Shown: piece by piece, positions 1 through 46,539 of the stretch
Layout of the letters: each line of letters starts with the position of its first letter
How positions within the stretch are numbered: position 1 is the first letter of the stretch
NCBI GenBank assembly: GCA_950295325.1
Contig: OX485805.1
Span: 30,615,501-30,679,500 of the forward strand
Length of the DNA stretch: 64,000 nt
Direction of reading: 5' to 3'
Source of the DNA: Polytrichum commune
Lineage: Eukaryota > Streptophyta > Polytrichopsida > Polytrichales > Polytrichaceae
Position numbers and translations under genes: made by a program
The notes under the pieces: model-generated
The model's input: the letters and a program-made list of their open reading frames with translations, nothing else
Told to the model about the DNA's origin: nothing
Databases searched by the model: none

Positions 1-58
1 TTTGATTACTGTTCATAACTGAAATTACTCCTGAGTTACCTGAATCTGTACTAACCAG

Positions 59-352
59 TATATATATATATATTTCTATATATATATTGTATTACCCGTT
101 TTACTAACCAATCTGTTTTATACTAATATATATATATTTCTGTTTCAATATATATTATATATATATATACTAACTTATAAATATATAAATATATATTTCT
201 GTTTATTATATATATATATATATTATACATTACTAACATTGCCTACTGTTTGTATTGTTAACCCATACATATATATATACAATTATATATATAATCTGTT
301 TACTGACATATACACATACATATATATATATCTATATATATGTGAGTCAAAG
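59..352. repeat. (TA)n-rich tracts in the retrotransposon leader
   Basis: Several runs of alternating TA, 8 to 20 bases each, are spread through the leader and separated by pieces rich in ACTAAC and CTGTTT. The whole stretch 1-578 is strongly AT-rich and has no credible coding frame. It lies between the expected primer-binding site and gag, so it is read as untranslated leader. Confidence 0.75.
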
Positions 353-578
353 TACGTCTGAATGATCTGTTAAACAAAAGACTGTACAAACTTCAATATC
401 TGTCTGTACTTCTCTAAACTGTTATGCTTTACTAACATCTAAAACAGTTCATACAACCAGTATATATATTAATATTTGTCTCTTTTAGGTCTATAGATTT
501 CTGTTTGAGTCCGTTCATACTAACAACCTTGTATAAAAACATTTTATCTATATTTTTACAAAGTCTGTTTATAAATGT

Positions 579-3500
579 ATGGCCAGAACAGTTTATGAAC
601 ATATGGCCCGCCAACCAGCTGTAGTTAAAACACTATCTACACAGCCTACATTCATTGAGAACAGAATGCAGTCATTAATGTTTGCCCCTTTAAATGCTGA
701 TGGATCAAACTTTTTAGAATGGATTAATGATGCTAAGACAGTCCTAAGTGCAGACGACTTAGCTAGAACCCTTACAGTTCAACCTTCTACATCAGCAGAC
801 CAAGTTCAACCCATTCCCCCTGCAGCTAGATGGCAAGCCTTATTGCAAATCAGAAGGCATTTAGATCACTCATTAAGATTACAATACCTTCAGATAGAGG
901 ATCCTGCAGAACTATGGGCATTATTACATTCTAGATTTAATCATCAACAAACATTATTCTTACCACAGGCCAAATCAGACTGGATTAATTTACGAGTATT
1001 AGACTATCCTGATTTCGCTACATTTAATTCGGAACTGCACCGAATTACGGCACAACTACGATTATGCGGGGAGATAATATCAGACGCAGAAATGATAGAG
1101 AAGACTCTATCCACTTTCCCACCTGCAACTGCCATCTTATCTCAACAGTATAGAAATATGAAATTTAAGAAACATTCTAACTTAATGTCACACATGTTAT
1201 TGGCAGAAAAACACCATCAGTTATTGTTAAGAAATGCAGATTCTAGACCGGTTCGCGAAATCCATCATACTGCAGCTCATGGACCTGCCGCATGGATGAG
1301 GGGTCCAGATGCAGCTGCTGCTTGGGTAAGGGGCCCTGATCCAACTCTTGCAGCCCACAGATCTGTAGCTGCTGATGCTGCATGGCGGGGACCAGCTGGA
1401 GCAGCTGCAGTCCAACATTCAGCTGCTGATTGGGGAGAACCTGTAGCTGCTGGACCCGCAACAATGACAGCAGAAACTTATGCTGCAGAGGCCTCTAGAC
1501 GCCTCCCTAGAGGTTCTTTCCGTAGAACCCAACCCCAACAGCAGAGAGGGATGCATAGAAATCAACAGAGAGGGATGCAAAGAGGGAATCAGAGAGAAAT
1601 GCAACATAGACCCAATTACCCACCCAGACCAGTCATTAATAAACCAGCAAAGGGTAATTGTCATAAATGTGGCAGAAGAGGTCATTTCTCAAAAGAATGT
1701 AGAGACCCTCCCTATTTGGTCAATATGTACAAAGAATTACAACAGTTACGAATCCAACCACGTCAGAATTATAACTTCCAAACAGAAAATCCTTCATCCT
1801 CTACCCATGACGTTGAGAGTTTCATGACTATCTGTGAGTCGCAAACATCGAACCCGGATGTTGCACTCTTAGATAGCGCCTCAACTCATACGATATTGAC
1901 CAAACCTGAATTCTTCCATTTCACTGAAAATGAGAAGTCCTGGCAGCATTGTAAGCTTATCACAATGGCCGGAAGCCGAAATATGAGATTTCGGGAGGGC
2001 CGGGCAACGGTAGTTTTGCCCGGGGGCTTCCCCCTCACTTGCGAGAAAGCAATGTACGCACCAGATGCGCCTCGTAGTCTGATCAGCTACAGGGATCTGA
2101 GAGCGAGGAAGATCCACGTTTCCACTGCGATGGAAAATGATGAAGAGGTTCTGGAGCTCAGGCAAGGGCATGAGATCCTTGCCACCGCAAATGCGGGAGA
2201 CGACGGCCTATATAAGATTGTCATAAAGCCCTTGACATGTAGCCCCATCTCTCTGATAGATGAGGAAGAGGTTTGTATGGCTGCTTGGGCTGGAGACCCT
2301 AAAGCAAAACGCCACAACCTGGCGCAGGGAGTATCTTTAGATACTATAGCCAAGCCTGATTTATGGCATATGAGATTAGGACATCCGGGAACTACATTAT
2401 TCCGCCGGATGCTTCCGATAATAACTGGGCATAATATGGTAACAGCTGAAGCTGAGAAAACCCATGCATGTGTTGCATGCATTCAAGGGAAATTCATAAA
2501 AAGACCCTCTAAATGGCATTTACCTAAAGAATTACCCCCTCCCCTTTTCAGACTTCATGGAGACATATGTGGACCAATTAATCCACCATCAGGAAATTTT
2601 AGATACTACCTGGTACTCGTGGATGCCTCAGGAAGCCATTTAGAAGTCTCCCTCCTTCCTACCAGAAATATGGCATTCCCCAGAATACTAGCCATCCTAC
2701 TAAGATACAGAAACCATTTCCCAGAAAATCCTATAAAATTCCTAAGGATGGACAATGCCCAGGAATTTAGGTCACATGCCTTTGAAGATTATTGTACAGC
2801 CATGGGAATTACATTAACACATTCTGTACCCTATGAGCACAGCCAAAATGGCTTAGCAGAAGCCTTTGTTAAGAAAATCCAGTTAATTACTAGACCCCTG
2901 TTACTACACTCTAACCTACCTTCTGATCTATGGGGTCATGCAGTACTACATTCAGCTGCACTACTAAGGTTGAGACCAACCTTATTAAACACCCAAACAC
3001 CCTATGAACTGGTTGCAGGAAGACCACCTGATGTGGCACATATTAGGGTATTTGGATGCCAGGTATGGATACCTGTTAGTGAACCCAGAAGACAAACCAT
3101 TGGACCTCATAGGCAGGAAGGCATTTATGTGGGATTTGACTCTAAATCTATCATCAGGTACTTAGATCCTACAACTGGAGTACTACTCAGGGCCAGATTT
3201 GATAACTGCAGATTCTTAGAATCTGTATTTCCAACCTTGAAGACTAAACATACATTCAAAAACCAAGATTTAACCTTTGTAGCACCTGAGACCTTAACCT
3301 TGAATCCTGATCCACCCACATCCCTCGCGAATACGGAAGTAACCAAACTTCTGAAACTAAAAGCCTTAGCTGAGAATACTCCTGATGGATTCTCAACTGA
3401 ACCTAGGATTATTAGACACCCTATTCCTGGTACCGGGACAACCTCAACCTTAACCAAACGCTATCCTGAAAACCCTATACCTATCCTTAGACCATCCAAA

Positions 3501-5285
3501 AAGCCTAAATCCCATTTTACAACTGAAGTCCAAGACCTGAAGACTGAAGAAGTCCAAGACCTGAAGACTGAAGATGTCCAAGACATGAAGATTGAAGACT
3601 GGGACAGGAACACAGAATTTTATAATGGGGAAACTTCAGAACCCAAACCAGATTTCAACCTAGAATCCAATCCAAACACCTTGAAACAAGCCATGAGCAG
3701 ACCTGATTGGCCAAAATGGCAACAAGCCATTCAAACAGAATACAATTCCCTAAGAAAACATCAAGTCTTTGGCCAACTATCCCTAGACCTTGACAAACCA
3801 CCTATAGGCCACAAATTAATTTTTACTAGGAAATCTAATGCTGAAGGCCAAATAATCAGATATAAAGTGAGGCTAGTGGCACAGGGGTTCACACAAAGGC
3901 CTGGTCTAGATTATGACCAAACCTACAGTCCAGTAATGGACACAACCTCATTTAGATACCTACTAGCTTTGAAAGTTCATCTATCCTTGCATATTTATTT
4001 ACTTGATGTTGTAATAGCCTACCTGCATGGCAAACTAGATTCAATTCTGTATTTATCTCCTCCACCTGGATTTCTGAAAAATAGTGCTAACCCCAAACCA
4101 GGAAAATTTGCAGGACTGAGAATTTATAAAGCACTTTATGGTCTGAAACAATCTGGTCGTACCTGGTACCACCACTTATGCAATTTCCTAATTGCACAAG
4201 GTTTTATATATAACCCTACCCTGCCTTGCATATTTACATTTACTAAAAATTCTGACTTTGTGATTTTGGCAGTTTATGTTGATGACCTGAATATTATTGG
4301 TACACCAGAACTTTGTAAGTATGCTCAAAACACCCTAACCCAGAAATTTGATATGAAATTTCTAGGACCTACTACATTCTGTCTAGGACTTCAAGTACAT
4401 CATATACCAGATGGGGGTATATTATTACATCAGGAAGCATACATAAATAAAGTACTTAAGGAATTTCAAATGGACAAAGCTAGCCCATTAGCATCACCTA
4501 TGATTGGGAAAAGTAAGACCAATGATGACCCCTACCAACCTCGTGAGGAGGAGGAGGAGATTGTAGATCAATCTAAATACCTCACTGCGGTTGGAACTTT
4601 CACGTATCTAACCACTCATACTAGACCTGATATAGCATTTGCAACTAGCATCTTAGCTAGACATAGTCAAAGTCCAACTATCAGACATTGGAATGGTGTT
4701 AAACACCTTTTTAGATACTTACGAGGAACTTCTGATTTAGGATTATGTTACAGAAAAACTAACAACCCTGAAATTTCAGGTTTTGCAGACTCTGGTTTCA
4801 GAACTGACATGGTTGCAGGCAAGTCTCAGACAGGCTATCTGTTTATGAAGAATGGTGCTCCCATTTCCTGGAAGTCAACCAAGCAGACAATCACAGCCAC
4901 CTCAACTAATCATGCAGAGTTATTAGCATTTCATGAAGCTGCAAGAGAATCTGTATGGCTTAGGACAATGGAGAAAATACTAATGGACCAGTGCAAAATC
5001 AAGACCAAGGACCTGCCCATAATTATATTTGAAGATAATGCAGCATGTATCCAGCAAATGTCATCTGGTTTCATCAAAGCTGATCGTACAAAACACATCA
5101 GCCCCCACATATTTACATTCAGCCAGGATTTAATAGAAAAAGGACAATTAGAAATCAGAAAAGTAGAATCTGAACATAACTTGGCTGATATGTTAACAAA
5201 GGCCTTGCCAGCCTATAAACATAGGAAATTAGTAGAAAAAGCAGGGATGAGAACACTCCACTCACTAACCTCTCCTGGATGTTAA
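579..5285 (+). CDS. Copia Gag-Pol polyprotein (1568 aa, intact)
   Basis: The frame encodes all proteins needed for copia retrotransposition. Residues 1-230 are a copia-type Gag. C361-x2-C-x4-H-x4-C374 is the CCHC zinc knuckle. The protease has its Asp at 432 in the context DSAS rather than the usual DSG. The integrase zinc module is H597/H602 and C631/C634, followed by a catalytic triad D662, D725, E761 with the classical 35-residue D-E gap. Reverse transcriptase has D1143 and the YVDD box (D1235, D1236). RNase H has D1404, E1447 and D1486. No stop or frameshift interrupts the frame. Oddities are an Ala/Trp/Pro/Gly-rich stretch before the zinc knuckle and a triplicated VQDLKTE-like unit near residues 984-1007, between integrase and reverse transcriptase. 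The ATG at 579 is the first in frame. Confidence 0.95.
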   Translation: MARTVYEHMARQPAVVKTLSTQPTFIENRMQSLMFAPLNADGSNFLEWINDAKTVLSADDLARTLTVQPSTSADQVQPIPPAARWQALLQIRRHLDHSLRLQYLQIEDPAELWALLHSRFNHQQTLFLPQAKSDWINLRVLDYPDFATFNSELHRITAQLRLCGEIISDAEMIEKTLSTFPPATAILSQQYRNMKFKKHSNLMSHMLLAEKHHQLLLRNADSRPVREIHHTAAHGPAAWMRGPDAAAAWVRGPDPTLAAHRSVAADAAWRGPAGAAAVQHSAADWGEPVAAGPATMTAETYAAEASRRLPRGSFRRTQPQQQRGMHRNQQRGMQRGNQREMQHRPNYPPRPVINKPAKGNCHKCGRRGHFSKECRDPPYLVNMYKELQQLRIQPRQNYNFQTENPSSSTHDVESFMTICESQTSNPDVALLDSASTHTILTKPEFFHFTENEKSWQHCKLITMAGSRNMRFREGRATVVLPGGFPLTCEKAMYAPDAPRSLISYRDLRARKIHVSTAMENDEEVLELRQGHEILATANAGDDGLYKIVIKPLTCSPISLIDEEEVCMAAWAGDPKAKRHNLAQGVSLDTIAKPDLWHMRLGHPGTTLFRRMLPIITGHNMVTAEAEKTHACVACIQGKFIKRPSKWHLPKELPPPLFRLHGDICGPINPPSGNFRYYLVLVDASGSHLEVSLLPTRNMAFPRILAILLRYRNHFPENPIKFLRMDNAQEFRSHAFEDYCTAMGITLTHSVPYEHSQNGLAEAFVKKIQLITRPLLLHSNLPSDLWGHAVLHSAALLRLRPTLLNTQTPYELVAGRPPDVAHIRVFGCQVWIPVSEPRRQTIGPHRQEGIYVGFDSKSIIRYLDPTTGVLLRARFDNCRFLESVFPTLKTKHTFKNQDLTFVAPETLTLNPDPPTSLANTEVTKLLKLKALAENTPDGFSTEPRIIRHPIPGTGTTSTLTKRYPENPIPILRPSKKPKSHFTTEVQDLKTEEVQDLKTEDVQDMKIEDWDRNTEFYNGETSEPKPDFNLESNPNTLKQAMSRPDWPKWQQAIQTEYNSLRKHQVFGQLSLDLDKPPIGHKLIFTRKSNAEGQIIRYKVRLVAQGFTQRPGLDYDQTYSPVMDTTSFRYLLALKVHLSLHIYLLDVVIAYLHGKLDSILYLSPPPGFLKNSANPKPGKFAGLRIYKALYGLKQSGRTWYHHLCNFLIAQGFIYNPTLPCIFTFTKNSDFVILAVYVDDLNIIGTPELCKYAQNTLTQKFDMKFLGPTTFCLGLQVHHIPDGGILLHQEAYINKVLKEFQMDKASPLASPMIGKSKTNDDPYQPREEEEEIVDQSKYLTAVGTFTYLTTHTRPDIAFATSILARHSQSPTIRHWNGVKHLFRYLRGTSDLGLCYRKTNNPEISGFADSGFRTDMVAGKSQTGYLFMKNGAPISWKSTKQTITATSTNHAELLAFHEAARESVWLRTMEKILMDQCKIKTKDLPIIIFEDNAACIQQMSSGFIKADRTKHISPHIFTFSQDLIEKGQLEIRKVESEHNLADMLTKALPAYKHRKLVEKAGMRTLHSLTSPGC

Positions 5286-5360
5286 TACTCTTTTCTCATC
5301 CAAGGTTTTATCCCACAGGGTTTTACTTGGAAGAGTTTTTAATGAGGTTAACACCAGGTT

Positions 5361-5369
5361 GAGGGGGAG
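5361..5369 (+). promoter_or_regulatory. Polypurine tract
   Basis: The purine run GAGGGGGAG lies directly before the TGTTA start of the 3' LTR. In LTR retrotransposons this is the primer site for plus-strand DNA synthesis. Confidence 0.85.
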
Positions 5370-5724
5370 TGTTAAGATAGCTAAGTAGCTATACAACCAG
5401 GTGTTAACTAGGCCTAGCCTTAGGACTGAGCTAAAGGGGTCCAGGGTACTAGCCTGGATACCCGACTGATATCCTAGCTATAATCAGTATTAGTAATGGG
5501 CTAACCAGGGCATCAGCCTGTCATGACCGGGTATAGACCCGTGTAGTATGAACTGAAGTGCTGACAGTATACGGGTGCAGTAGAGCAGCGACACCTGGCC
5601 TTCATACCCCCTGACTACCATATACAGTATATATACCCTGTGGCTCTCATTCTCACATAGAATTTACATTGAAGTATTCATGCACCAATACTCTGTCTAA
5701 ATCTCTACTTGTATACTTCCAACA
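5370..5724 (+). repeat. 3' LTR of the copia element (355 bp)
   Basis: The LTR starts TGTTAAG right after the polypurine tract and ends CCAACA at 5724, giving the TG...CA ends and short inverted termini usual for copia. A TATA-like run TATATATA sits at 5628-5635 and is the likely core promoter in the 5' copy. Flanking DNA begins AGGAG at 5725. The partner copy is outside the window, so the boundaries rest on the motifs. Confidence 0.85.
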
Positions 5725-7250
5725 AGGAGCATTGGTCGAACATCAATTGTGGGTGCAGCCGGGAAGAGGAGAATTTGGGGATCTCGGCTGGAGGGGATTG
5801 AAGGAAGGTGGATTCCGCGGGTAAGCTCACTTCAACTGAGTATTCAGGTTGTAAGGGTTGAGCGAATGCCTTCGTGTGCGTGGTCATCGAATGTGAAATA
5901 TTCAGGGGAGAACAATCAATGCGGAAGCGCTGCAGAAAATTAGACAGTGGGAAAACACAAGCATTCAGGGGTGTCCAAAAGCAAAACAGATTCAAAATCT
6001 GCTCGGTGCTTGAATGACGAAGTGGTACTGGAATGATAATGGAGACGCTGGGGGCTCTGAGCCTACAATTCTACTTGGATGGGTCGACAGTGGAGGTTGG
6101 CTTACTTATGATTCCGCCCCAAAGGATGGCGGCGTAGGAGCTGGAGTGGTCTGAATGTGACCTTCAGCAATGCTGGATCGAATTGCAAGGGCTGGGAAAA
6201 TCAGTTGGGTTCAAAGAGTGCCTGGTGGCAGTCTGTGGAAGTTTGGAAACATAGTGGCTAACTAACAGGGGGGTAATGCCTCGAGGCGGGAATCCATGCA
6301 TGGTCGGGTCCAAACTGCTGAACTGGGGTATCGATTGAGACTGCGGCTGGGACAGGGCCGAGGGTGGAGTAATTCAGAGCGGGGACCAGTGCCTAACAGC
6401 CAGCTCCAGTAGCTCTACACGGCTGCCAACAACCCATACCGTCACCAGCCAAGGATTGAAGGGATGACTTAACTTGCTAGGTTAGGAGGTTAAGTAGTGA
6501 TTAGATGGTAGAGCTAGACGTAAGGAGGGCCCAGTTACCAAGGGAGTTGGTACAATCACTTGTTGGGATGCCGGCCAGTAAGTAGCGGTAGTTAAAACTT
6601 AGTTAAGTCAATGTTGATTAACACTCCCAAGTATGGAGTGTAGTGTGGATGCACAAATTCTTGTTGGAGTTGCCTGAATAAAAGTGGTATTTTAAACTCC
6701 TTATGGATGAGAAAGGGGTAGAATTGATTTAGGCCATTCAACAAGGTGTTAACTCTGAACTACCACCTGGACTAGGACGCAATCAAAGGTGGGGGTTTAG
6801 GGCTGACAAAGGGCGAGGGTGAAAACGATGACTTTAATGTATAGTGTGATTATCTCTATTTTAAGAAAAGGAAACACTTAAATCACGGTCAAAACCCCCC
6901 AATTAGTTTTGTTCTATTAAATTAGGATAAATCAACATAAACCTATAGGGGGCAAGTTTTTAGTATGAACCCCATGGTAGGTGTTAGGAAAGAAAATCCA
7001 TTCTTCAGTCATAGTTAGTTTCATAATCTCCTTTGATCTTAATAAGTTAGTCATTCAAGTGGGGTGACTCCATCCGAAAAGTTACAAGACAAATGGGTCC
7101 TCAATACTCACATCGACAACAGAGCAAATGCCACGACTTATTTTATTTTCTATGTTTAATCTCCAATCTAAACCTAAGTCATAAATTTGATTGCATGGGT
7201 TCATTTTTCCTTGGCATTTTGGTATTTCCACACTAAAAAAAATTAAGAAA
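5725..7250. other. Non-coding stretch, unrecognised
   Basis: The first ~800 bases are less AT-rich than the surroundings and contain short frames on both strands without recognisable domains. From about 6900 the composition becomes AT-rich. No gene, terminal repeats or RNA gene is recognised. It may be an old non-coding retroelement. Some short phrases, such as GGACTAGGACGC, recur near 38370. Confidence 0.3.
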
Positions 7251-19508: not shown

Positions 19509-19512
19509 ATAA
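19509..19512. repeat. Target-site duplication ATAA, left
   Basis: ATAA directly precedes the left terminus at 19513 and is repeated directly after the right terminus at 28021-28024. Confidence 0.75.
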
Positions 19513-19529
19513 GGGTAGAAGCACGCTAA
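19513..19529 (+). repeat. Left terminal inverted repeat
   Basis: GGGTAGAAGCACGCTAA, exact reverse complement of 28004-28020. About 950 bp of promoter-like DNA separates it from the transposase start. Confidence 0.85.
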
Positions 19530-20339
19530 ACTAGTACAAAAATGTTGTCACAGTGTACAGTTTCAGAGGAATGTTGCATTCAATTGGGTGTGGATTTCAA
19601 TGTAGCATCTCTTTGAGGGATAACATGGAATAATATGGTTGTGGATATAGATGAGCAATAATTACTCTAGTTTCTATCAAGAAACTCATCATGGTTTGAC
19701 CGTGGTGAGTATATTTGTATACCATTGGTTCCCTGTCACACAGTATATTTTTGATGAAAAAGGACTTTGTTTTGTGAGTTCCATGTTATATTTTTCTATG
19801 ACTCTTTTGTGACATGTGTAATATATATAAATGAAGCATACTTTGTTGAAGAATTGCAACATTTGCACTCCAGTCAACGGTTAATGAAAGAAATTGGGGT
19901 TATATTTGTAAGTGCTTGAATCATGGTAAAACAAAATGTTTTTGGGCATTTTAACTTCTGCCCGTATAAATCAGAGAGTACACTACGTGGGCTTAAGGGT
20001 TTTTTTGGGAACAAACGCTTTTTCTTTCCAGATATCTGATCTAAAAAAAAATGCGCACAGGCAGGGTGCATATACCATATGTACTGCCATAGTAGTTTAA
20101 CATACTTCGTCAAGGTCATTCGGCCAATGGCAGATGCCCACGTGGCATTCTCTATCTTACTATATCGTCTACAGTCCTGTCAATGCTATTGCAGGCAAAT
20201 GCTGCGTCGGATAAAAATGGAAAGCGCGTGGGTCTGTTGGGTGTCTATGTGGGGCCGTGTCATTCGACGTTAGGGTTGACAGGTGGTGGCTGAATGGGAC
20301 GTTACAATGGGCTTGTTGTTTTTCGTTAGGGTTTTGGGA

Positions 20340-20365
20340 CTTTGCTGCACGTCACGTGCGAGGTG
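20340..20365 (+). promoter_or_regulatory. ACGT-core motif cluster before the transposase gene
   Basis: CACGTCACGTGCGAG contains a G-box-like CACGTG core with a second ACGT next to it, about 110 bp before the start codon. Such cores bind plant bZIP and bHLH factors. No clear TATA box was fixed, so a promoter role is inferred. Confidence 0.35.
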
Positions 20366-20469
20366 AGCTTGCGTTTTGCTAGGGTTCGCAATTTTGTGGT
20401 CTCCGACGTCTGTGGCTAGTTGTTGTTGGAATTGACACCGACAGGGGGTTTAGGGGTCGTGCTTGCAAT

Positions 20470-23400
20470 ATGGGCAACACAAGAGCCCAAGATCGTCGTC
20501 GGGGTGTTAAACGGCCTGGACCTGCCCAGAGAGCGCACTTACAGTCACCTCTTCAACCTACCGCTTCTCTTGTAGCAGCAAGGGAGAATGCTGCAGAACG
20601 CCAACGACAATGTAGGGCAAGGAAGAGAAATCTGAATCTAAGGTCTGAGCAGATGGCATTATTGAGGGAGGGTGGAGAATTGATAAATACTGGTCGACGG
20701 GATGTCCTTAGAGTATCAACCAAAATTTGTTCTTTCATTGTAGCTGAGTTGGAGAACGATTGTGCTGGTCCGCGTTTTCGAGCGGCTGTTTTAGAAGCAG
20801 TTCTCAGGAACAATGCCATTGCTCCACATTTGCCGGAGTATTATAGCTCTGAATTGGAGGCCAAGGCTACTCATTCATTTATTCAGTCTTATAAGAAAGA
20901 GTTGCAAATGTTGAAAAATGCGAGCTCTGCAGAGAAGCTTGTGAGGAAGACGACCTTGCTGGAAGCCGCAGTGAATAGCGACGCCACTGGCGTCCGAGCC
21001 TTGTCGAGAGTGTTGGGGACGAATCCCCAAAATATTTCCTCTGCCATTCATAGACGAAGAACACTTGAATCAAGTGGATCCTCCATTTTCAGGTTGGCTG
21101 AGAGGAGAAGGAGGGATGGTGTTCTGAGGGGGACCAGAGAACTTGTGATCGCTTGGTGGACTTCAGAAACTCGTGTGAGTCCCAATAAGAAAGATGTGAC
21201 CAGAAAGCGGTTGGGGCCCAAAATGTACGATCAGCACGCTACCCACCTTCTATTGGAAAGTCAGGTATGCGATCTGAAGTTCTTCCTCAAGTGGACATGA
21301 AAATTCATGTCACCCTTTAACAACCATTGTTCTCTCATAATATTTTAAGCAGTTTCAAGAATTCATCTTGGGGTGTAAGGTTGTTTTTAAATCTGTTATC
21401 AGCTCTCCACATAGTACTCATAGTATTTGCTGGTTTGGTACATATCGTATGATAGGTGGTATTGCTAAAAAATTGTCACACCCAATAGTGTACGAGAACT
21501 ACCTTCAAAGTACTCTACTTATGGTGTCCATACAGTGCCATATACTTATGGTACTGCCAGTGCTGTGTAATTTACAATGCTAATATACACAATGATGATT
21601 ATTGTGTACCATAATGTATATTGCCTGCCTCATCTTAGTATACATTAGATACCTCGGTAGTGTCAGTAGTCTCTGTCTGAAGTCCTAGGAGTATGACTTC
21701 CTTATTCATACTTGCATTTTCATAGTACTACAATGTACTACTCAAAGCTTTCATTATACACCATACACAAAGGGTTAGTAATGTGTAGTCCTGGAAAGTC
21801 ATTGGACTACTTTTGGGTTCTGTATTTCTTCCCACATATCCCTTACCCATACTCCTTGTATAGTATGTGGTAGTACAAATTTAAAGTACAATGGACACAA
21901 ATATATTGTGTAGGCTTCATTCTATGAGCGTTTTCTTCAGTCTCACCCTGATGCTACCATTTCCATGCGTGCGTTCGAGTGCCTGAAGCCTTTTTTTGTC
22001 AAAAAGTGTAAAGACCGAAATGTCTGTTGCTGCAAGTACCATGTTGAGATTGACATGCTACGGGAGGCAGTCAACACAATGAGGGATGCTGTGAAGGGAG
22101 TACACTCTACCATTTCTTGTACTTGTTCATGTCCAGTTTGTTACAATTCCGATGATGATTCTTGTTGTGCGCATTTGGGCAAATGCGATGGAGTTACTAA
22201 ATTCTGGGAGCAGATTGTATGTCCAAAAGGGGAATCAGAGGAGTTCCATAAGCTAGAATGTTTGATGGGTGAATGTTCCAATTGCGGTGCACATACTCTC
22301 CAATTGTGCCCTTTAGAGGTATCATCTCCGTCTTTTGCTTTGAAGTGGAGGTGTTTCAGCTACGAGGTGGTTGGAGTAAACGATGATGGGGAACCCAGAA
22401 AACGAATTAGGGAGGTTTTCATGGAAACCTCTTGCCTTAGTTTTTTTGAGTATTTGAAGCCAAAGTTGCGGGAGTTTGTTAGTCACAACTTCATTGCAAG
22501 GTGGCAGGATGTCCACTGTAGGATTAGTATGAAGGAGTTACCTGCTGATGCTATCCTCTCCCATGTTGATTTTGCCGAGAACTATTCGTTTGAGATCCAA
22601 AACGAAATTCAATCCATGCATTGGCATTCTTCCCAGATTACAATTCTTGTTCACATAACTTATAGATTGGATGCATTGACTAATAGCATGGTGAAAGAGA
22701 GTCACTTCTATGTGTCAGACGATAAAACCCATGACACCTTATTTGTACAACATTGCTTCTTGCAGCATTGGGAGTGGTTGAAATTGCAAGGGGTCAATGT
22801 AGCTCGTCATTGGGTTTGGAGTGATGGTTGTGCCGGGCAATTTAAAGGTTCGAGGCCCATGTATTTTGTTAGCAGATACCCAGGCCTTACTGGAGGGTGT
22901 GTCATGTCGTGGAATTTTTTTGGTACAGGCCATGGGAAAGGCGAATGGGATGGAGCAGGCGCTGTTGTGAAGAGGGCTTTGCGTACAGAGCAACTGCACA
23001 ACCCCTGGCGGAAGCTACAAGATGCAAGAGATGCTGTTGATTTCTTGAAGGAGACTATGGAGGGCATTGTAGACAATTCGAGTGGTGGAAACAAAATAGC
23101 GTCTCATAGGTACTTTCACCTTATTGAGCCTGCCGATGTAGATCGTCGGCACCTTCATGGATGTGACACCATTGTCGGCTCTAGAAAATTGCACTCAATC
23201 CAAGGAGTGTCAATTTCTAATCCAACATTGCTAATGGTAAGGCAGTTGTCTTGTTTTTGTACTCCCTGCATGGACGGTGATTGGGCAGCTTGCGAGAAGA
23301 TGGCCCATGTCCAGCCTTGGAGGGTTATTAAACTTGTTCCAACAGATGTATCATTTGTAAGGGAGCAGATGATTTCATGTCAGGCTCAAGCTGGAGAATC

Positions 23401-23809
23401 AGAGCCATGGGATTACGTCACTGAAGAGACACTAGGAGACTTGGTGTCTGCTGGCGATAATTTTGCAGTTCCGGCGATTGAAGGTAATGCAGAAGGGGTG
23501 GACTTCTACATTCTTCAATGCCAAAGGAGAAAGCAGATCGTAAGGGAGAAATTTACATGTATTTGGGGTGGGCAATTCGATGTTGGAGAATATGTCATTG
23601 CAGGAACCTACTATCAGAAATGGGGGAGTAGCCCTAATTCATATGTGTACTTGAGGAATTCCAGAGTAGCTTATATCGATGCCTCCTTAGTTATTGCATG
23701 CAAATTTCAGATGGTCCCAGCTGCTCATAGAGTAAAGGGTGATGAGCCTGTTTACCAATTGTTAAGTGAGACAATTGATGTAATTACAACAAGCCTAGAG
23801 GCTCTATAA
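20470..23809 (+). CDS. Transposase-like protein, 896 aa, exons 20470-21264 and 21914-23809
   Basis: Exon 1 ends at a CAG|GTATGC donor (21264) and exon 2 begins after TGTAG (21914). The join is phase 0 and reads ...LLLESQ|ASFYERF..., adding 17 residues before the methionine at 21965. Residues 37-55 form a basic, bZIP-like stretch rich in Arg. Two Cys/His clusters follow: CCCKYH near 303, and a CTCSCPVC cluster with further Cys near 334-350. Three acidic motifs, DFAENY (~484), SDGCAGQFK (~568) and HGKGEWDGAG (~603), have the look of an RNase-H-fold DDD/E catalytic core. Similar motif sets occur in uncharacterised proteins of animals and algae. Its place between inverted termini supports a transposase role. 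It converges with the RING gene, with 484 bp between their stop codons. Confidence 0.78.
21265..21913 (+). other. Intron of the transposase-like gene (649 bp)
   Basis: Bounded by GTATGC and TTGTGTAG. It is AT-rich and full of short GTACTAC/ATAGTACT-like phrases. Small frames inside it have no support. Confidence 0.75.
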
Positions 23810-24293
23810 TATTATGAGGAAGTTTTTAAACTCCCCCCTTCATAATTTTTGCACTTCATTTGAAATATCATTGGCAATAGGCATACAATGACATAAGTAC
23901 GTCTTACACCTTCAAAATTCAGCTGGAGGATGCCACTGATGTGACACATGAATCAAACAAGCCTGTATTCATAACTCTATTCAGTAAATATCAATACAAT
24001 TGATCATGACTTGATATAATCCGAGTCAACGACTTTAAACCAAATTAGGGCATGCTATAATTTGAGTTGATATAATCTGAGTCAAGGACCCTAAAACTCT
24101 CTACATGCTTCAATCTGCATAAAACTACCCTATATGCTTCAATTTGCCTAAAACTACTCTAGATGCTCATATGTACTCTCAAATTATGCACAAACTCAAG
24201 TGAGTCACGGATACCCAATAAACCACCAAAAATTTGAGTTTATAAAGGGTTCTGGTACAGGGTAACTCCCTCAAAATTTCACCCTATCCTATC

Positions 24294-27282
24294 CTACTTC
24301 TTCTTCTTTTTTGTCTTCTTCGGTCCGCTTCCCATGACCTCCAGCGTTTCCGAAGGCCCATCTGCTCGGGTCCTAACCTTCTCGAATTTTGATTTGTTCC
24401 TCGTGGTTATGGAAGTAGGCTTGCCACTAGTTTCAACATCTACAGCGCTCCTAGTCTTCTGTGACGCTACTAGGGTCTTCCCCGGGTCTTCCACAAATGC
24501 TGGTGGCCTACATACTACTCCCTTGCTGGCTTGTTGCTTGGTGAGCTCTGCAATTGTGGCCTTCAATTTGGCCACCTCATCATCCTTGGACACGTCAAGT
24601 TTCGGGTTGTCCTCTGCACGGTCAATTTCTGCATCCTTTCCTCGAGGTCTGTCATTGACCTCTTCTTGCAAGGGCTCATCGTCAGCACTTGAAGCTTGAG
24701 AACCATGTTCTTGGGTTTTCCCCGGGGTGCTGACAATTGTGTCATTAACAGCCTGCAGTTGATTCACCTCTGTAGCAATCGCTTCAGATGATTGCCCCGG
24801 AGCATCTGCACCCTTTGAAATGCCTAAAACCAATGTCGTGAATAACGACTTCTGAGGAGACTTGGACGGCGACTTCGTCGGAGTAGTTACTCCATGTGGA
24901 GCCTCAGTAGATGTAAGTCGAGAGGACGTCGTCGGAGTAGTAGCTGATGGTGCAGCCTCAGTAGATGGGAGTCGAGAGGGTGGCAAAAGTACACTCTTTG
25001 TTCCTGAGGGTGGAACCTGTGCTTGACTAGTCTCCCCCAAGCTGTATGTCCCTGTGCAAACCTTTGTTCCTGAATGCGGTATCTGTGCTTGACTAGTCTC
25101 TCCCAAGCTGTATGTCCCTGTGCACACCGAAGCCTGCCCAGGAAATGGCTGTTGAGAGGACCCTGCAATTAATAAACCAAAGCATAAGAAACAATTCACT
25201 TATATGCGTGATTAAGTGTATAAGACTACAATATAGCAGTGAGTGGCATAATAACATAGTCTAATAATGAATCCTGAGTGCAAAACATATTCAAAATATG
25301 TGTATGTACTTATGAGTACACAAAGCATACAGGTAAAGTAATCTTGCAATGTATGCTGATAGACCCATTATTACACTGAAATGTACTAATCAGACTATAC
25401 CTGATTATAACTAGTGTATGAATCTTGAGTGCAAAACACATTGAGAATATGTGCATATACTTCTGAGTGCCCAAAGCATACAGGTAAAGTACTCTTGCAA
25501 TGTATGCTGATAGACCCATTATTACACTGAAATGTACTATTCAGACTATACTTGATTATAACTAGTGTATGCCTCATGAGTGCAAAACATACTCAGAATA
25601 TGTGCATATACTTCTGAGTGCCCAAAGCATACTGTAAAACTACTGTTATTATGTATGTTAATAGACTCAGTAGTACATTGACATATACTAAGTGTACTAT
25701 TTGCGAGTGTAACTAGTGTACTATGTTGAAGCGTTATAAACACTTCAATATACTACAATTCACAGAGCATGTGTACTACAAGTATATTCTAATACAGAAC
25801 ATGTCAAACCCTAAACCCAATATTGACATTGTGTACATTAAATGAGTCACAAAAACAAGATGCTCAAGTAGATGGAAGCATACCAATGTCTGCACCACTC
25901 AGCTTGGCAGCAGCTGTTCTCTCTGATAGAGCCAGCTTTCTTTGGAGGTCGCAATCCAGTGCATCGGCCTTCTCTTCAAGACTAATGGGAAGTTCCCCAA
26001 AGCCAAAACTTTTGTACCAGTCTGGATGAACAACTGAACATGATTTTTCTACACACTTTACTGATGTACTAAACCAGGACACAACACACCATGGGTGGTA
26101 TACATGGCGGCAGCTACACACTAGAATGTCATTGTAAGAAAATGGGCAATCACACAAAACGCAATTCGTTACCATTATAGAATCACTATCCATCAGCTCT
26201 AACTCTAGTGAGTTGCACATGGGGTGGGGGTGCAAAGCCAGTCCAGGCCGTCCACTTCGTAAATTGGACAACTGCTTGGCCATAATAGATTGTTGACTCA
26301 CGAGGAACGCTTCCCTCCGCACCAACTTCTCATGAAGAGAGGCTTGGAGTTGCTGGTCAGCAACAATGGCGTTGTACTCACCCTCTGTCCTCTTGAAAGT
26401 GGCTTCGTAGAAGTCAAAGGTCATCTGCATTGTCGGCAACTCGTTCAGCTCGGTACAACCCTCAAGCTTCTTCTTGTACTCCTTGCAGGTCGCATCCATG
26501 GAGTCCAGCATTATGCGGACGCCCTCCACCTTAGAGTCCAGGCGTTGCTTCTCTTTCACAGCCGTGTCCATATCAATCCTCAGAGCAAGCAGCTCCAATT
26601 CAACCAGACGTTGAAGGTCGTTGCTCTCTCGCTTTTTTTTCTCAATCCAGGAGGAACTTTGTCCACCCACCCCTCCACACGGCAACTCACCGGGCTCTCC
26701 CTTCACAAGGACGTCACCTTGCATTAAAGTGTCCATATCTTCTTCCTCCAAAATGTCACTGAAATTCCTTTCAGTGAGTGCCGCTTTCATCTCCAATGCG
26801 GCCTTCATTTTCTTTTGCCATGCACTACACTGATTTCGGTTTGTGATGTGAGCAAAAGATGCCCAATCAACATCTAAACCCTTCACTACATCAGCGACAA
26901 TACCAATTGCGAATTCTTTACCTATGAGCTTAGTTTTGATTAGAGAAGGTTTCTGGTAGACTATAGGATACAGTCTAGCAATGGCAGACTTAACCTTAGG
27001 ATTCTTGACATCCCCAAACCAAAACCCTGACTTGCCTCGCTGTGGCCCAAACACGGAGGTCAGATCGCTCTGGAGGATCTCTCTGGTGTCTCTGGACTTG
27101 TGAGGATTGATCCCTGTCCCATTCAACCCAAAACTATCCCTAAAATCCTCGAAAGACAATGCAGGAGGAGGTGCACCTCTCCGCAAAACAACAATTTTGT
27201 CATCTACGTCATCCACAGTGGTAAGGTGGAGCTGTTCATCATCGTCAGGAACAACGTCCTGTTTTTTCTCTTTTTTCCCCAT
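24294..27282 (-). CDS. RING-type zinc-finger protein of the transposon, 755 aa, exons 27282-25884 and 25162-24294
   Basis: The start is the ATG at 27282 (MGKKEKK); the frame stays open upstream but has no earlier ATG. Exon 1 ends ACATTG|GTATGC and exon 2 begins after TTGCAG, in matching phase. Residues 1-190 have no family I recognise. About 230-350 is rich in Glu, Lys and Leu and likely coiled coil. Residues ~373-420 carry C-x2-C-x11-C-x-C-R-H-x2-H-x2-C-x10-C-x4-C, a RING-like zinc module followed by HPDWYKSFGFG. Exon 2 is Ser/Thr/Pro-rich with duplicated CTGTYSLGETSQAQ and STEA..TTPT units, and ends in a Lys-rich tail that may be a nuclear signal. It may regulate or assist the transposase, or act as a ubiquitin ligase; neither is shown. 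Confidence 0.72.
25163..25883 (-). other. Intron of the RING gene, containing a tandem repeat
   Basis: Read on the minus strand it starts GTATGC and ends TTGCAG. It holds three ~151-bp tandem copies and no supported coding frame. Confidence 0.7.
25270..25725. repeat. Tandem repeat, ~151 bp x 3
   Basis: The phrase TGAGTGCAAAACATA recurs at a 151-bp step (from about 25275, 25426 and 25578), each followed by a TTCTGAGTGCCCAAAGCATA-like box and an AATGTA..CTAGTGTA end. Copies 1 and 2 are close and copy 3 is more diverged at its end. The array lies inside the intron of the RING gene. Confidence 0.85.
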
Positions 27283-28003
27283 TGCTAAACCCTGTGGCCT
27301 GTGTTTGAAACCTTGCCTAAACCCTAAAACCCTAATCCTCACTATGAAGACGTGAAATGAGTGAAGCCACCTGACAGTAAAACCCTAGCTAAAGCCCAGA
27401 GGACCGAAATTGCAACCTTGCTTGAGCAAAACCGTAAACCTCAACATGAATGGAATGAATGTAGAATGCGCGATATGAGTGAAGCCGAATCTACCTGAAC
27501 CCTAGCTAAACCCCAGAGGACCAGTTCTCATTGTGCTTCCCTCATACAACAAAAAACAAAAAAAACAAAACACAGATTTGCAACCAGGACCTCTGTTTCC
27601 CAACGCAACAGCTCCGCTCCGCCTTCCCAACGCCACAACTCCGCCTCACCAACGTCACAGCTCCGCCTCCCCAGCGGCACAAAAAAACGAAAAAGACGGA
27701 ATTCCACGACTCTACCCCAGGAGGATTCTCCGCCCAACTCACGAAGCGGGAGAATTTTGAATACGCGCTAAACCGGCGCGCGCCCAGGTTGCCGGGAGTC
27801 TAGCTTGCCCGAAATTGGAAACCTGACGCGTCAATATTAAAGTCCGAAACCCAGTCTGTCAACTCCCCATAAAGCCCGTACTCAACGGCCACGATTGCCC
27901 TGGCACAGAGAATCGATGGTGATGCTAGATTTAGAAATCTCAAAGAATTGCCCCAAACTGATGTACTAAACATACTTTGATTTTTGCCCAAAGTGTACCA
28001 ACC

Positions 28004-28024
28004 TTAGCGTGCTTCTACCCATAA
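28004..28024 (-). repeat. Right terminal inverted repeat and target duplication
   Basis: TTAGCGTGCTTCTACCC (28004-28020) mirrors the left end exactly. ATAA at 28021-28024 duplicates the left flank. Confidence 0.85.
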
Positions 28025-39185: not shown

Positions 39186-39190
39186 CGTGA

Positions 39191-39756
39191 GTGCAAGCAT
39201 GGTAAAGTGGACCAAAAAAGTGCTCCAGCAAAACATTGTTAAAATTGGACTTTCCTTCATGATGACATTTTTTGTTGTGTTGAATTTTCAAATGTAAATA
39301 ATCAAGTTGAGATTTTTAATACTTATCATAAAAAATGATCCTCAAAAGAAAATGATTGAGTATGGTTTTGGACATAGACTTCATGACCTTAACTATTTCG
39401 AAGTTGGAATTTTCTTTCATATTCCTTGAATTCAATATCTATTTGAGGGCATCATCACAAGACTTTGGGGAAAACCATCAATTTAATGGAATTTTATCGT
39501 ACTTTAAACAAATTTTAGATAGTCACTTGTTCAATATCACCTACTTGCACACCACTTGCACCGTCTTCTAAAATATGTAGACTTTTCTTGGAATTTTTTT
39601 GGTCATCATTATTTGTTTGGCTTTGTAAATCAATATGTTTTCAAAATGTCTATGATTTTTTTTCTTCACAAAATTCAAAGTTAGTGTATATCTTTGAATC
39701 ACTTTCAATGAACACGAGGCAGGGATTAGGAGTTGTCCACTTTACTATGCTTGCAA
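39191..39756 (+). mobile_element. R2 element copy 1 (non-autonomous, ~566 bp)
   Basis: The left end GTGCAAGCATGGTAAAGTGG is mirrored at the right by the phrase CCACTTTACTATGCTTGCA (39738-39756). The body aligns with 45379-45988 in the same orientation at high identity, and its right part aligns inverted with 42268-42515. CTCGT on both sides may be a 5-bp target duplication. Short frames of ~70 aa are shared with copy 2 but show no sign of coding constraint. Confidence 0.65.
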
Positions 39757-40455
39757 CCTCGTATGTTGTCACATGCAAGAAGAGTGAAGCTCAAAATTCA
39801 CCAACGCACCAAGCATCTTAATTTTCATTCTTCACCTTTTATCCAATGTACGGGTGTATGATATTCATCCTTTGGTATATTGGTTTCCAAAGATCGAGGA
39901 GGACATTTTTGTTCAGGTTGTCACCGTTGCCCCACTATATCATGGTACACGTTTGTATTATAATCTTTTTGATCTTGGAGACTTGGACAGTTGAAAATTT
40001 GTCTGAACACTTTTAGCTTTATGAAGATATCATCCATACGATCAAATTTATCATAAGAGGTGTCGCTTGCCTTTAATAAGTTGTAGAAGTGGACTGTAGA
40101 AGTATACAATTCTGGAAAAAAATTGAAAAGATTTTAGAGGATTAAAGAAAATCTTTTTGTCTTTGTAACAACAATGTTATGTTTGTGTGGGAACTCGTGC
40201 ATCATGGATGAAAGGGTTTCCAAAAAAGATTGTCATACATGGATTTCTTTGGAGCACACCCCTCCTTTGAACATGGAAACTTCAACAACACAGTTTTTTG
40301 AGGGGCCCCATATCATGTGAAGGAAGAGACAAAAGAATAGCCACTAAGATTTTGAGGCTTCACTAGTGCCTTCACTGTTGCCTGCATCCTCAAGTTTTGT
40401 GTAGTTTATGCAATTCTACTTTAAGTTGATGGAAAAAAAATCCAAATGGTTTTCT

Positions 40456-42267: not shown

Positions 42268-42515
42268 CGGGCGCAAGCATGGTCAAGTACACAACTTCAT
42301 TACCATGCATAGGTTTAACTGAAAGCGATCAAAAACTATGTACTAACTTTGAATTTTGCGAAGGAAAAATCTTGAACAGTTTAAAAACACTTTGATTTAC
42401 AAAGTGGAGAAAGTTATGCTGGCAAAAAGGAATTCAAGAAAAGTCTACATATTTTAGAAGACACTACGAGTAGTGTGCAAGTAGATATATTGAACATATA
42501 ATTGTCTAAAAACAT
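42268..42515 (-). mobile_element. R2 element copy 3, inverted and truncated
   Basis: Starts with a decayed terminal repeat (GGCGCAAGCATGGTCAAGT). On the minus strand it then matches the right part of the other R2 copies, including the phrase CAAGAAAAGTCTACATATTT read on the plus strand. It stops near 42515, so about half the element is missing. Confidence 0.55.
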
Positions 42516-45375: not shown

Positions 45376-45378
45376 CTA

Positions 45379-45988
45379 GGTGCAAGCACGGTAAGGTGGA
45401 CCAAAAAAATGCTCCGGTATATTAAAACCATAATTTTTCTGGTCAAAGGCCTAAAAGTAGTAGCAAAACGTTGTTTAGATTGGATTTCTTTTGATGATGA
45501 CCTTTGTTGTTGTGTCGAATACTCAAATGTAGAAAATTAACTTGAGATCTTCAATACTTATCACTAAAAGTGATGCTCAAAAGCAAATGCTTGAGTCTAG
45601 TTTTAATCGTAGATTTCATGACCTTTACTATTTTGAAGTTGGAATTTTCTTTCATATTCCTTGAATTCATTATCTATTTGAGGGCATCATCACAAAACTT
45701 TGTGGAAAACAATCAATTTAATGGAATTTTATCGTACTTTAAACAAATTTTAGACAATCACTTGTTCAATGTCACCTACTTGCACACTAGTCATACCATC
45801 TTCTAAAATATGTAGACTTTTCTTGGATTTTTTTTCATCATAATTTTCTTGGTTTTGTAGATCAATATGTTTTACAAATGTCTATTATTTTTTTCTTTCA
45901 CAAAATTCAAAGTTAGTGTATATTTTTGAATCACTTTCACTGAACACTAGGTAGGGATCATGAGCTGTCCACTTTACCGTGCTTGCAC
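45379..45988 (+). mobile_element. R2 element copy 2 (~610 bp)
   Basis: The left end GGTGCAAGCACGGTAAGGTG is mirrored at 45966-45988 (CCACTTTACCGTGCTTGCACC), with one mismatch over about 23 bp. The body aligns with 39191-39756. A block of about 48 bp near 45420-45465 is absent from copy 1. No clear target duplication. Confidence 0.7.
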
Positions 45989-46539
45989 CCTCCTCCCATA
46001 TATTGCATGTTCTGACATTAAAATAATTCATCAAAGAATTGAAGCCACACGCTCACACACATCACGTTGTCATCATTGCCATTATTTTGGTGTTGACTTT
46101 GTGTTATTCCATAATGTCACATGCTACACCAATTCTCTATTATCATACATCTATGCCAACACTACATACCTCCTTAATGTCACATGCACTTTGGATGCCA
46201 CAAGCATGATAGTAGGGAGGTTACAGTGTATGTGTATTGAGAATCTCATGATGTATTCAAGTGTCCATTTATTTAACAATGTTACACCCTTTGAATGTTA
46301 ATATTGGGTACACAACCAGTGAGAGGAAAGTGGATGATGTATTAGATCATGACCATTGAGCGGCCCCAAGTATGGGTGCTCGGGTGGGTCCTCCCAATAG
46401 AATAATCTACTGCAAATGCGATTTCCATTGGGTAGAGATTATGCACACCAACAAAGAAGTTTGTAAATAATTTGTTGGACTAAATGGTTTCTTTTCTTGA
46501 ATGAGATGTATGTGATTGAAATTGCGATTCACCATAAAT

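Follow-up and report, generated by a model that had tools for sequence, protein, structure and literature searches.

Structure of the element

A 64,000-nucleotide stretch of the Polytrichum commune genome (assembly GCA_950295325.1, contig OX485805.1, positions 30,615,501 to 30,679,500, forward strand), hereafter called the window, carries a two-gene transposon at window positions 19513-28020, with a length of 8508 base pairs (bp). The original prediction had described an intact element of 8.5 kilobases (kb) with exact 17-bp ends, ATAA on both sides and two open, spliced genes, and all of this was found again. The features of the element are as follows.

19509..19512, no strand: target site duplication, left copy, ATAA; paralogous empty sites have one copy, reading ATAG
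19513..19529, plus strand: left terminal inverted repeat, 17 bp, GGGTAGAAGCACGCTAA, an exact match to the inverted right end
20470..21264, plus strand: transposase exon 1, 265 amino acids (aa); basic N-terminal part, with an SPNKKDVTRKR segment, kept between families, right before the splice site
21265..21913, plus strand: transposase intron, GT..AG, predicted from the sequence
21914..23809, plus strand: transposase exon 2, 631 aa with stop; Cys-rich part, D219, D304 and D346, C-terminal Cys cluster
24294..25162, minus strand: second gene exon 2, with stop; low-complexity tail, lysine-rich at its end, with in-frame tandem repeats of 66 bp and 54 bp
25163..25883, minus strand: second gene intron, GT..AG, predicted
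25884..27282, minus strand: second gene exon 1; N-terminal region conserved, middle part coiled-coil-like, then a RING-H2-like module
28004..28020, minus strand: right terminal inverted repeat, 17 bp, GGGTAGAAGCACGCTAA inverted, exact
28021..28024, no strand: target site duplication, right copy, ATAA, the same letters as the left copy

With up to three mismatches allowed, the 17-base end has three matches in the window against 0.11 expected from shuffles, namely both ends of the element itself and, at 45974-45990, one end of a short element. A 16-base version of the end, allowing at most one mismatch, matched nine places in the 408-megabase (Mb) genome, while a reversed control pattern matched three, and all nine matches sit at the ends of this family's six copies.

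The predicted transposase

The plus-strand gene is predicted to encode a protein of 896 aa, 265 from exon 1 and 631 from exon 2, which agrees with the original prediction. The splicing is deduced from the sequence, and a homologous exon 1 with an identical splice position occurs in two further families (L024 and L007). Two alignments were made: A3, with 12 transposase sequences that are 40-45% identical to the window protein, and A1, with 17 sequences, comprising the window protein and those from 16 of 29 other loci; both were restricted to loci free of stop codons. The motifs DFAENY, SDGCAGQFK and HGKGEWDGAG, previously singled out as the possible seat of three acidic transposase residues, are present and conserved between families. 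In A3, one aspartate within each of them (D219, D304 and D346 in exon 2 numbering, within DFAENY, SDGC..QFK and HGKG..DGAG) is invariant in 12 of 12 sequences, and D269, H273, D274 and several cysteines are likewise invariant.

The ratio of nonsynonymous to synonymous substitution rates (dN/dS) of the transposase was 0.149 and 0.166 against two copies that are 17% diverged. Comparisons inside two other families gave 0.154 and 0.153, and a pair whose dS was saturated gave 0.046. At the level of sequence, the comparison of relatives supports the plus-strand gene as a transposase with a putative RNase-H-like three-aspartate (DDD) centre.

Copies, mobility and empty sites

A six-frame search of the 408-Mb assembly with exon 2 gave at least 79 matches, which represent at least 61 transposase loci; 70 of the 147 candidates were scored, and these counts are lower bounds. 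Five close copies besides that of the window are 99, 98, 90, 89 and 89% identical to it in exon 2, most others being 40-50% identical. Identity among the window element, L002 and L003 is 98.4-99.3% over 4.9 kb, and among five members of another family (L022-L026) it is 99.4-99.8% over 4.8 kb. These near-identical copies within families indicate that several families moved recently.

The search of the same genome for further termini, as had been suggested, yielded copies that share the ends and differ in their 4-bp duplications. Of the five other copies in the family of the window element, four had both ends, with the duplications ATTC (L002), ACTT (L003), ATGT (L005) and ACAT (L006), read in the orientation of the element; in L004 the 3' end is present and the 5' end lies outside the stretch examined. 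In other families, L024 is flanked by GTAT (element of 13,814 bp), L008 and L014 by GTGG and AGGA (elements of 9.7 kb), and L007 and L011 by CTAT and ATAT (about 9.2 kb for L011). Exact 4-bp duplications were thus seen in 10 of the 12 copies with an end examined, and no pair mismatched; the two copies outside this count are L004 and L022, the latter covered at its left end only. The ends of the four autonomous families all begin with GGG and are similar to each other (GGGTAGAAGCACGC, GGGAGGAAGCATCC, GGGTGAATGCATGG and GGGCGATTGCAAGC).

Empty sites were also looked for. The window element is flanked on either side by sequence of a dispersed repeat, and six other places match both flanks. At each of the four junctions examined among these six, the paralogous sequence aligned without gaps to the joined flanks, and the best alignment was obtained with a single copy of ATAA. 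The scores for one, two and no target copies were 132/124/120, 119/111/107, 113/105/101 and 118/110/110. These relatives are diverged and read ATAG at the target. Compared with the window, they also differ by about 1.3 kb of sequence, starting some tens of bases rightward of the site and clear of the junction.

These results bear on a possible domestication, in which the transposase region would be a host gene placed between similar ends by chance. Its intact open frames would be compatible with domestication. This explanation is nevertheless refuted by the copies elsewhere that have the same ends and different duplications, and by the empty sites, which leave it a negligible probability. Neither of the outcomes that the original prediction had named as contrary to a transposon was seen, as other copies share the ends and the gene is not a single-copy host gene.

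As a separate observation, L015 (C1:24064338-24069215) and L016 (C1:24142134-24147011) are inverted relative to each other, separated by about 78 kb and identical at all of 4878 bp, with their second genes at equal distance. A recent duplication in inverted orientation may explain this, or else the assembly.

The second gene encodes a RING-H2-like protein

The minus-strand gene has two open exons with a predicted product of 755 aa, spliced as read from the DNA. Its RING-H2-like module was identified here and goes beyond the first reading of the sequence. The spacing in the window protein is C-x2-C-x13-C-x-H-x2-H-x2-C-x10-C-x4-C. The eight ligands C374, C377, C391, H393, H396, C399, C410 and C415 follow the C C C H H C C C order and are invariant in five of five proteins. 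The N-terminal region and the RING module are common to the five aligned proteins, which are 24-25% identical to that of the window. For the second gene, dN/dS came to 0.118 within the family of the window element and to 0.192 for one other pair.

A genome search with the product of exon 1 gave at least 107 matches, grouped into 70 clusters, 92 of the 134 candidates having been scored. Identity was about 80-100% in the close family and about 23-41% elsewhere.

Two further features were noted. The intron of the second gene contains three 151-bp tandem repeats (25267-25719), of which the second and third are 92% and 75% identical to the first. The 13.8-kb family (L024 with L041, L042 and L046; C1:72549640-72570481) encodes two proteins that share the conserved N-terminal region of the second-gene product, one of them with a RING, and has an extra Cys-rich RING-like open frame.

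The two genes are paired across the genome

At 41 of the 61 transposase loci, a second gene lies 3' of the transposase gene within 15 kb, in convergent orientation. With the distance extended to 40 kb this holds for 47 of 61, and in every one of these cases the two genes are on opposite strands. On the 5' side, a second gene was seen at one of 61 loci. In 2000 trials of random placement, such pairs numbered 0.09 on average and 2 at most. In most, though not all, of the relatives, the second gene is conserved as a part of the transposon. The exact ends, the differing 4-bp duplications, the empty sites, the recent copies, the purifying selection on the two genes and their co-occurrence together lead to the conclusion that the element is, with high probability, an autonomous cut-and-paste DNA transposon with a DDD transposase and a RING-H2 partner.

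Several observations weigh against this conclusion or parts of it. Regarding the transposase, L019 has N at the position of D219 (1 of 17 sequences in A1), dN/dS against the two nearest copies was 0.26 and 0.79, from only 8 and 12 changes, and two single-sequence AlphaFold2 runs, with the window protein and no relatives, gave mean predicted local distance difference test (pLDDT) values of 30.1 and 32.2, too low to judge the fold either way. Regarding the RING module, Pfam zf-RING_2 scored 20.9 bits (E 4e-4) against a cut-off of 27.3, three relatives scored weaker, the match fell under the Pfam cut-off in every protein scanned, and the final ligand pair is spaced C-x4-C. As for the pairing, at 14 of the 61 transposase loci the 40 kb on the 3' side contain no second gene at the search sensitivity used. 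At least six of these 14 have open frames of 579-580 aa and probably constitute one subfamily that has no second gene, which implies that the partner is not needed by every member. Moreover, 13 of the 70 second-gene clusters have no listed transposase within 45 kb, and one pair lies on the same strand with the second gene upstream (C7:39431271 and C7:39438977).

The last group of observations could also be read in another way, with the second gene as a captured host gene, carried as cargo and without a role in transposition. Captured genes occur in some transposons, and both the solitary second-gene clusters and the apparent existence of at least one subfamily without the gene would agree with this. 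Against it, the second gene keeps the same convergent place at the 41 loci although the second proteins are so far diverged, and the purifying selection on it, with this shared place, points to long joint inheritance. The convergent placement and the selection thus argue that the second gene is part of the transposon, and cargo appears very improbable. In the transposon with a RING-H2 partner, the RING protein is probably needed for jumping or for escape from silencing.

Relationship to known transposons

The original prediction had proposed Sola as its best guess. According to the excerpts of the descriptions considered here, Sola elements have a DDD transposase, 4-bp duplications and variable ends whose inverted repeats measure 11 bp or more (PMC10741241). 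They measure 2-9 kb, with some over 15 kb, and are found in the moss Physcomitrella (PMC10741241, PMC9033089), being uncommon in plants outside mosses (PMC10741241). The 4-bp duplication, the three aspartates, the size and the variable ends of the present element all fit this description. A point that does not fit concerns Sola2, for which AT-rich AWWT duplications were given as a rule from elements of two amoebozoa (PMC3627910). Among the ten duplications found here (ATAT, ATAA, ATTC, ACTT, ATGT, ACAT, GTAT, GTGG, AGGA and CTAT), only ATAT follows AWWT, and the rule may not cover all Sola2 elements. A further difference is that the excerpted descriptions of Sola mention no conserved convergent RING-H2 gene. 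Sola stays the best guess, and the element, judged by these descriptions, is most likely Sola-like.

A competing view is that the element represents a new superfamily, with its own lineage of transposase and an ancestral RING partner, which resembles Sola by convergent hallmarks only. Several results speak for it. With E values up to 10 admitted, exon 2 had no match in Pfam. The 17 aligned members gave three weak Pfam names, each in one member (E 0.05-2.4), which were taken as chance, and no relative of the transposase was found in PDB. The targets, mostly unlike the Sola2 rule, point the same way. On the other hand, the duplication length, the three aspartates, the size and the variable ends fit a superfamily already known in a moss. 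A new superfamily is thus a possible but less probable explanation than a Sola-like element.

Outside this genome, no relative was found in viral contigs, either by peptide patterns or by a degenerate HGKGxxDG DNA pattern, or in phages by tblastn. In other genome contigs, four pattern matches were obtained, none of which was confirmed. Animal proteins that presumably have the same HGKGxxDGxGG signature are regarded as a lead only and not as a test. No description of this element was recognised, among the matches listed, in the literature on Sola, RING-finger transposons and anti-silencing.

Other systems share fewer properties with the element. MuDR and Mutator-like elements resemble it in having two convergent genes, mudrA and mudrB in MuDR, of which the second is not a transposase gene. 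The duplications here have 4 bp, in contrast to the 7-12 bp of Mutator and Mutator-like elements (PMC10741241), and no match to a Pfam Mutator transposase was found. Tc1/mariner elements differ in duplicating TA, compared with 4 bp here. The targets of piggyBac and Kolobok are TTAA, which occurs in none of the ten duplications.

DUF7869 (PF25273) was considered as a relative of the transposase and rejected. By eye, it has D.NC..(D/E)NK, GHTxxDxD and KR in the same order as SDGC..QFK, GHGKGxxDG and KR in the transposase. In hhalign, the probability was 0.1%, with a score below the shuffled median. In comparisons with A3, 29 of 100 and 9 of 100 column-shuffled controls scored as high, so that relatedness is not shown. 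DUF7869 itself is very abundant in the genome, with 1491 first-look candidates, and 150 of the 150 listed exceeded the cut-off (loci L061-L072). Many of these loci have the same open frame of 692 or 502 aa, which looks like another very active mobile family.

Short derivatives and other features of the window

Two short elements and a related partial piece also lie in the window.

39189-39758: short element, exact 4-bp duplication TCGT
42269-42511: related partial piece
45378-45990: short element, 4-bp duplication CCCT/TCCT

The short elements in the window have ends like GGGTGCAAGCAYGGTAA. A genome search with the element at 45378-45990 gave 2249 first-look candidates, and all 40 that were scored matched at 87-100%. 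Ten copies were examined at their ends, and eight were readable at both, with seven exact 4-bp duplications and one agreeing at three of four bases. The ends of the short elements, GGGTGCAAGCA, are likewise of the GGG type. Over their first 11 bases they differ at one position from GGGTGTAAGCA, which is the right end of the 13.8-kb family, and at two positions from the end of the window element. Under a published rule, equal duplication length and first 11 bases with one mismatch place elements in one superfamily (PMC4455052, excerpt). By comparison with the 13.8-kb family, the short elements would accordingly fall in the same superfamily, and they are probably non-autonomous relatives of the transposon.

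Elsewhere in the window, the plus strand has a single open frame of 1582 aa (537-5285), which by eye resembles a Copia-type retrotransposon polyprotein. No long terminal repeats were found around it when positions 1-6500 were compared with the window.

Proposed mechanism and significance

In the proposed mechanism, the 896-aa protein would bind the GGG-type ends, and its RNase-H-like DDD centre (D219, D304, D346) would cut them and join them to the target at cuts staggered by 4 bp. The 755-aa protein, with its RING-H2 and coiled-coil parts, would be a required trans-acting partner. Its role might be a ubiquitin-ligase-like action on host proteins through the RING, for example against silencing, which is the leading guess and is slightly preferred. 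Nearly as likely, it might act as an assembly factor at the ends.

A more far-reaching and rather doubtful proposal is that the element belongs to a superfamily not described before, or to a branch deep within Sola that has no name yet. The RING-H2 protein would then be an ancient partner of the DDD transposase, a transposon-encoded ubiquitin ligase that removes, for instance, silencing or repair factors, and the system would feed the short family of about 2,000 copies.

The element is a real and well-preserved autonomous transposon of a large family, most likely Sola-like, and the chief new finding is its accessory RING-H2 gene. Sola-type transposons have been little studied, and the present genome offers many families, several of them with near-identical, probably active copies. 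The second gene has been kept beside the transposase gene through deep divergence, which makes the role of non-transposase genes in DNA transposons testable. VANDAL elements carry anti-silencing VANC genes (PMC5735166, PMC10398659). If the role proposed for the RING partner is true, it would tie transposition to the ubiquitin system, in parallel to those anti-silencing genes.

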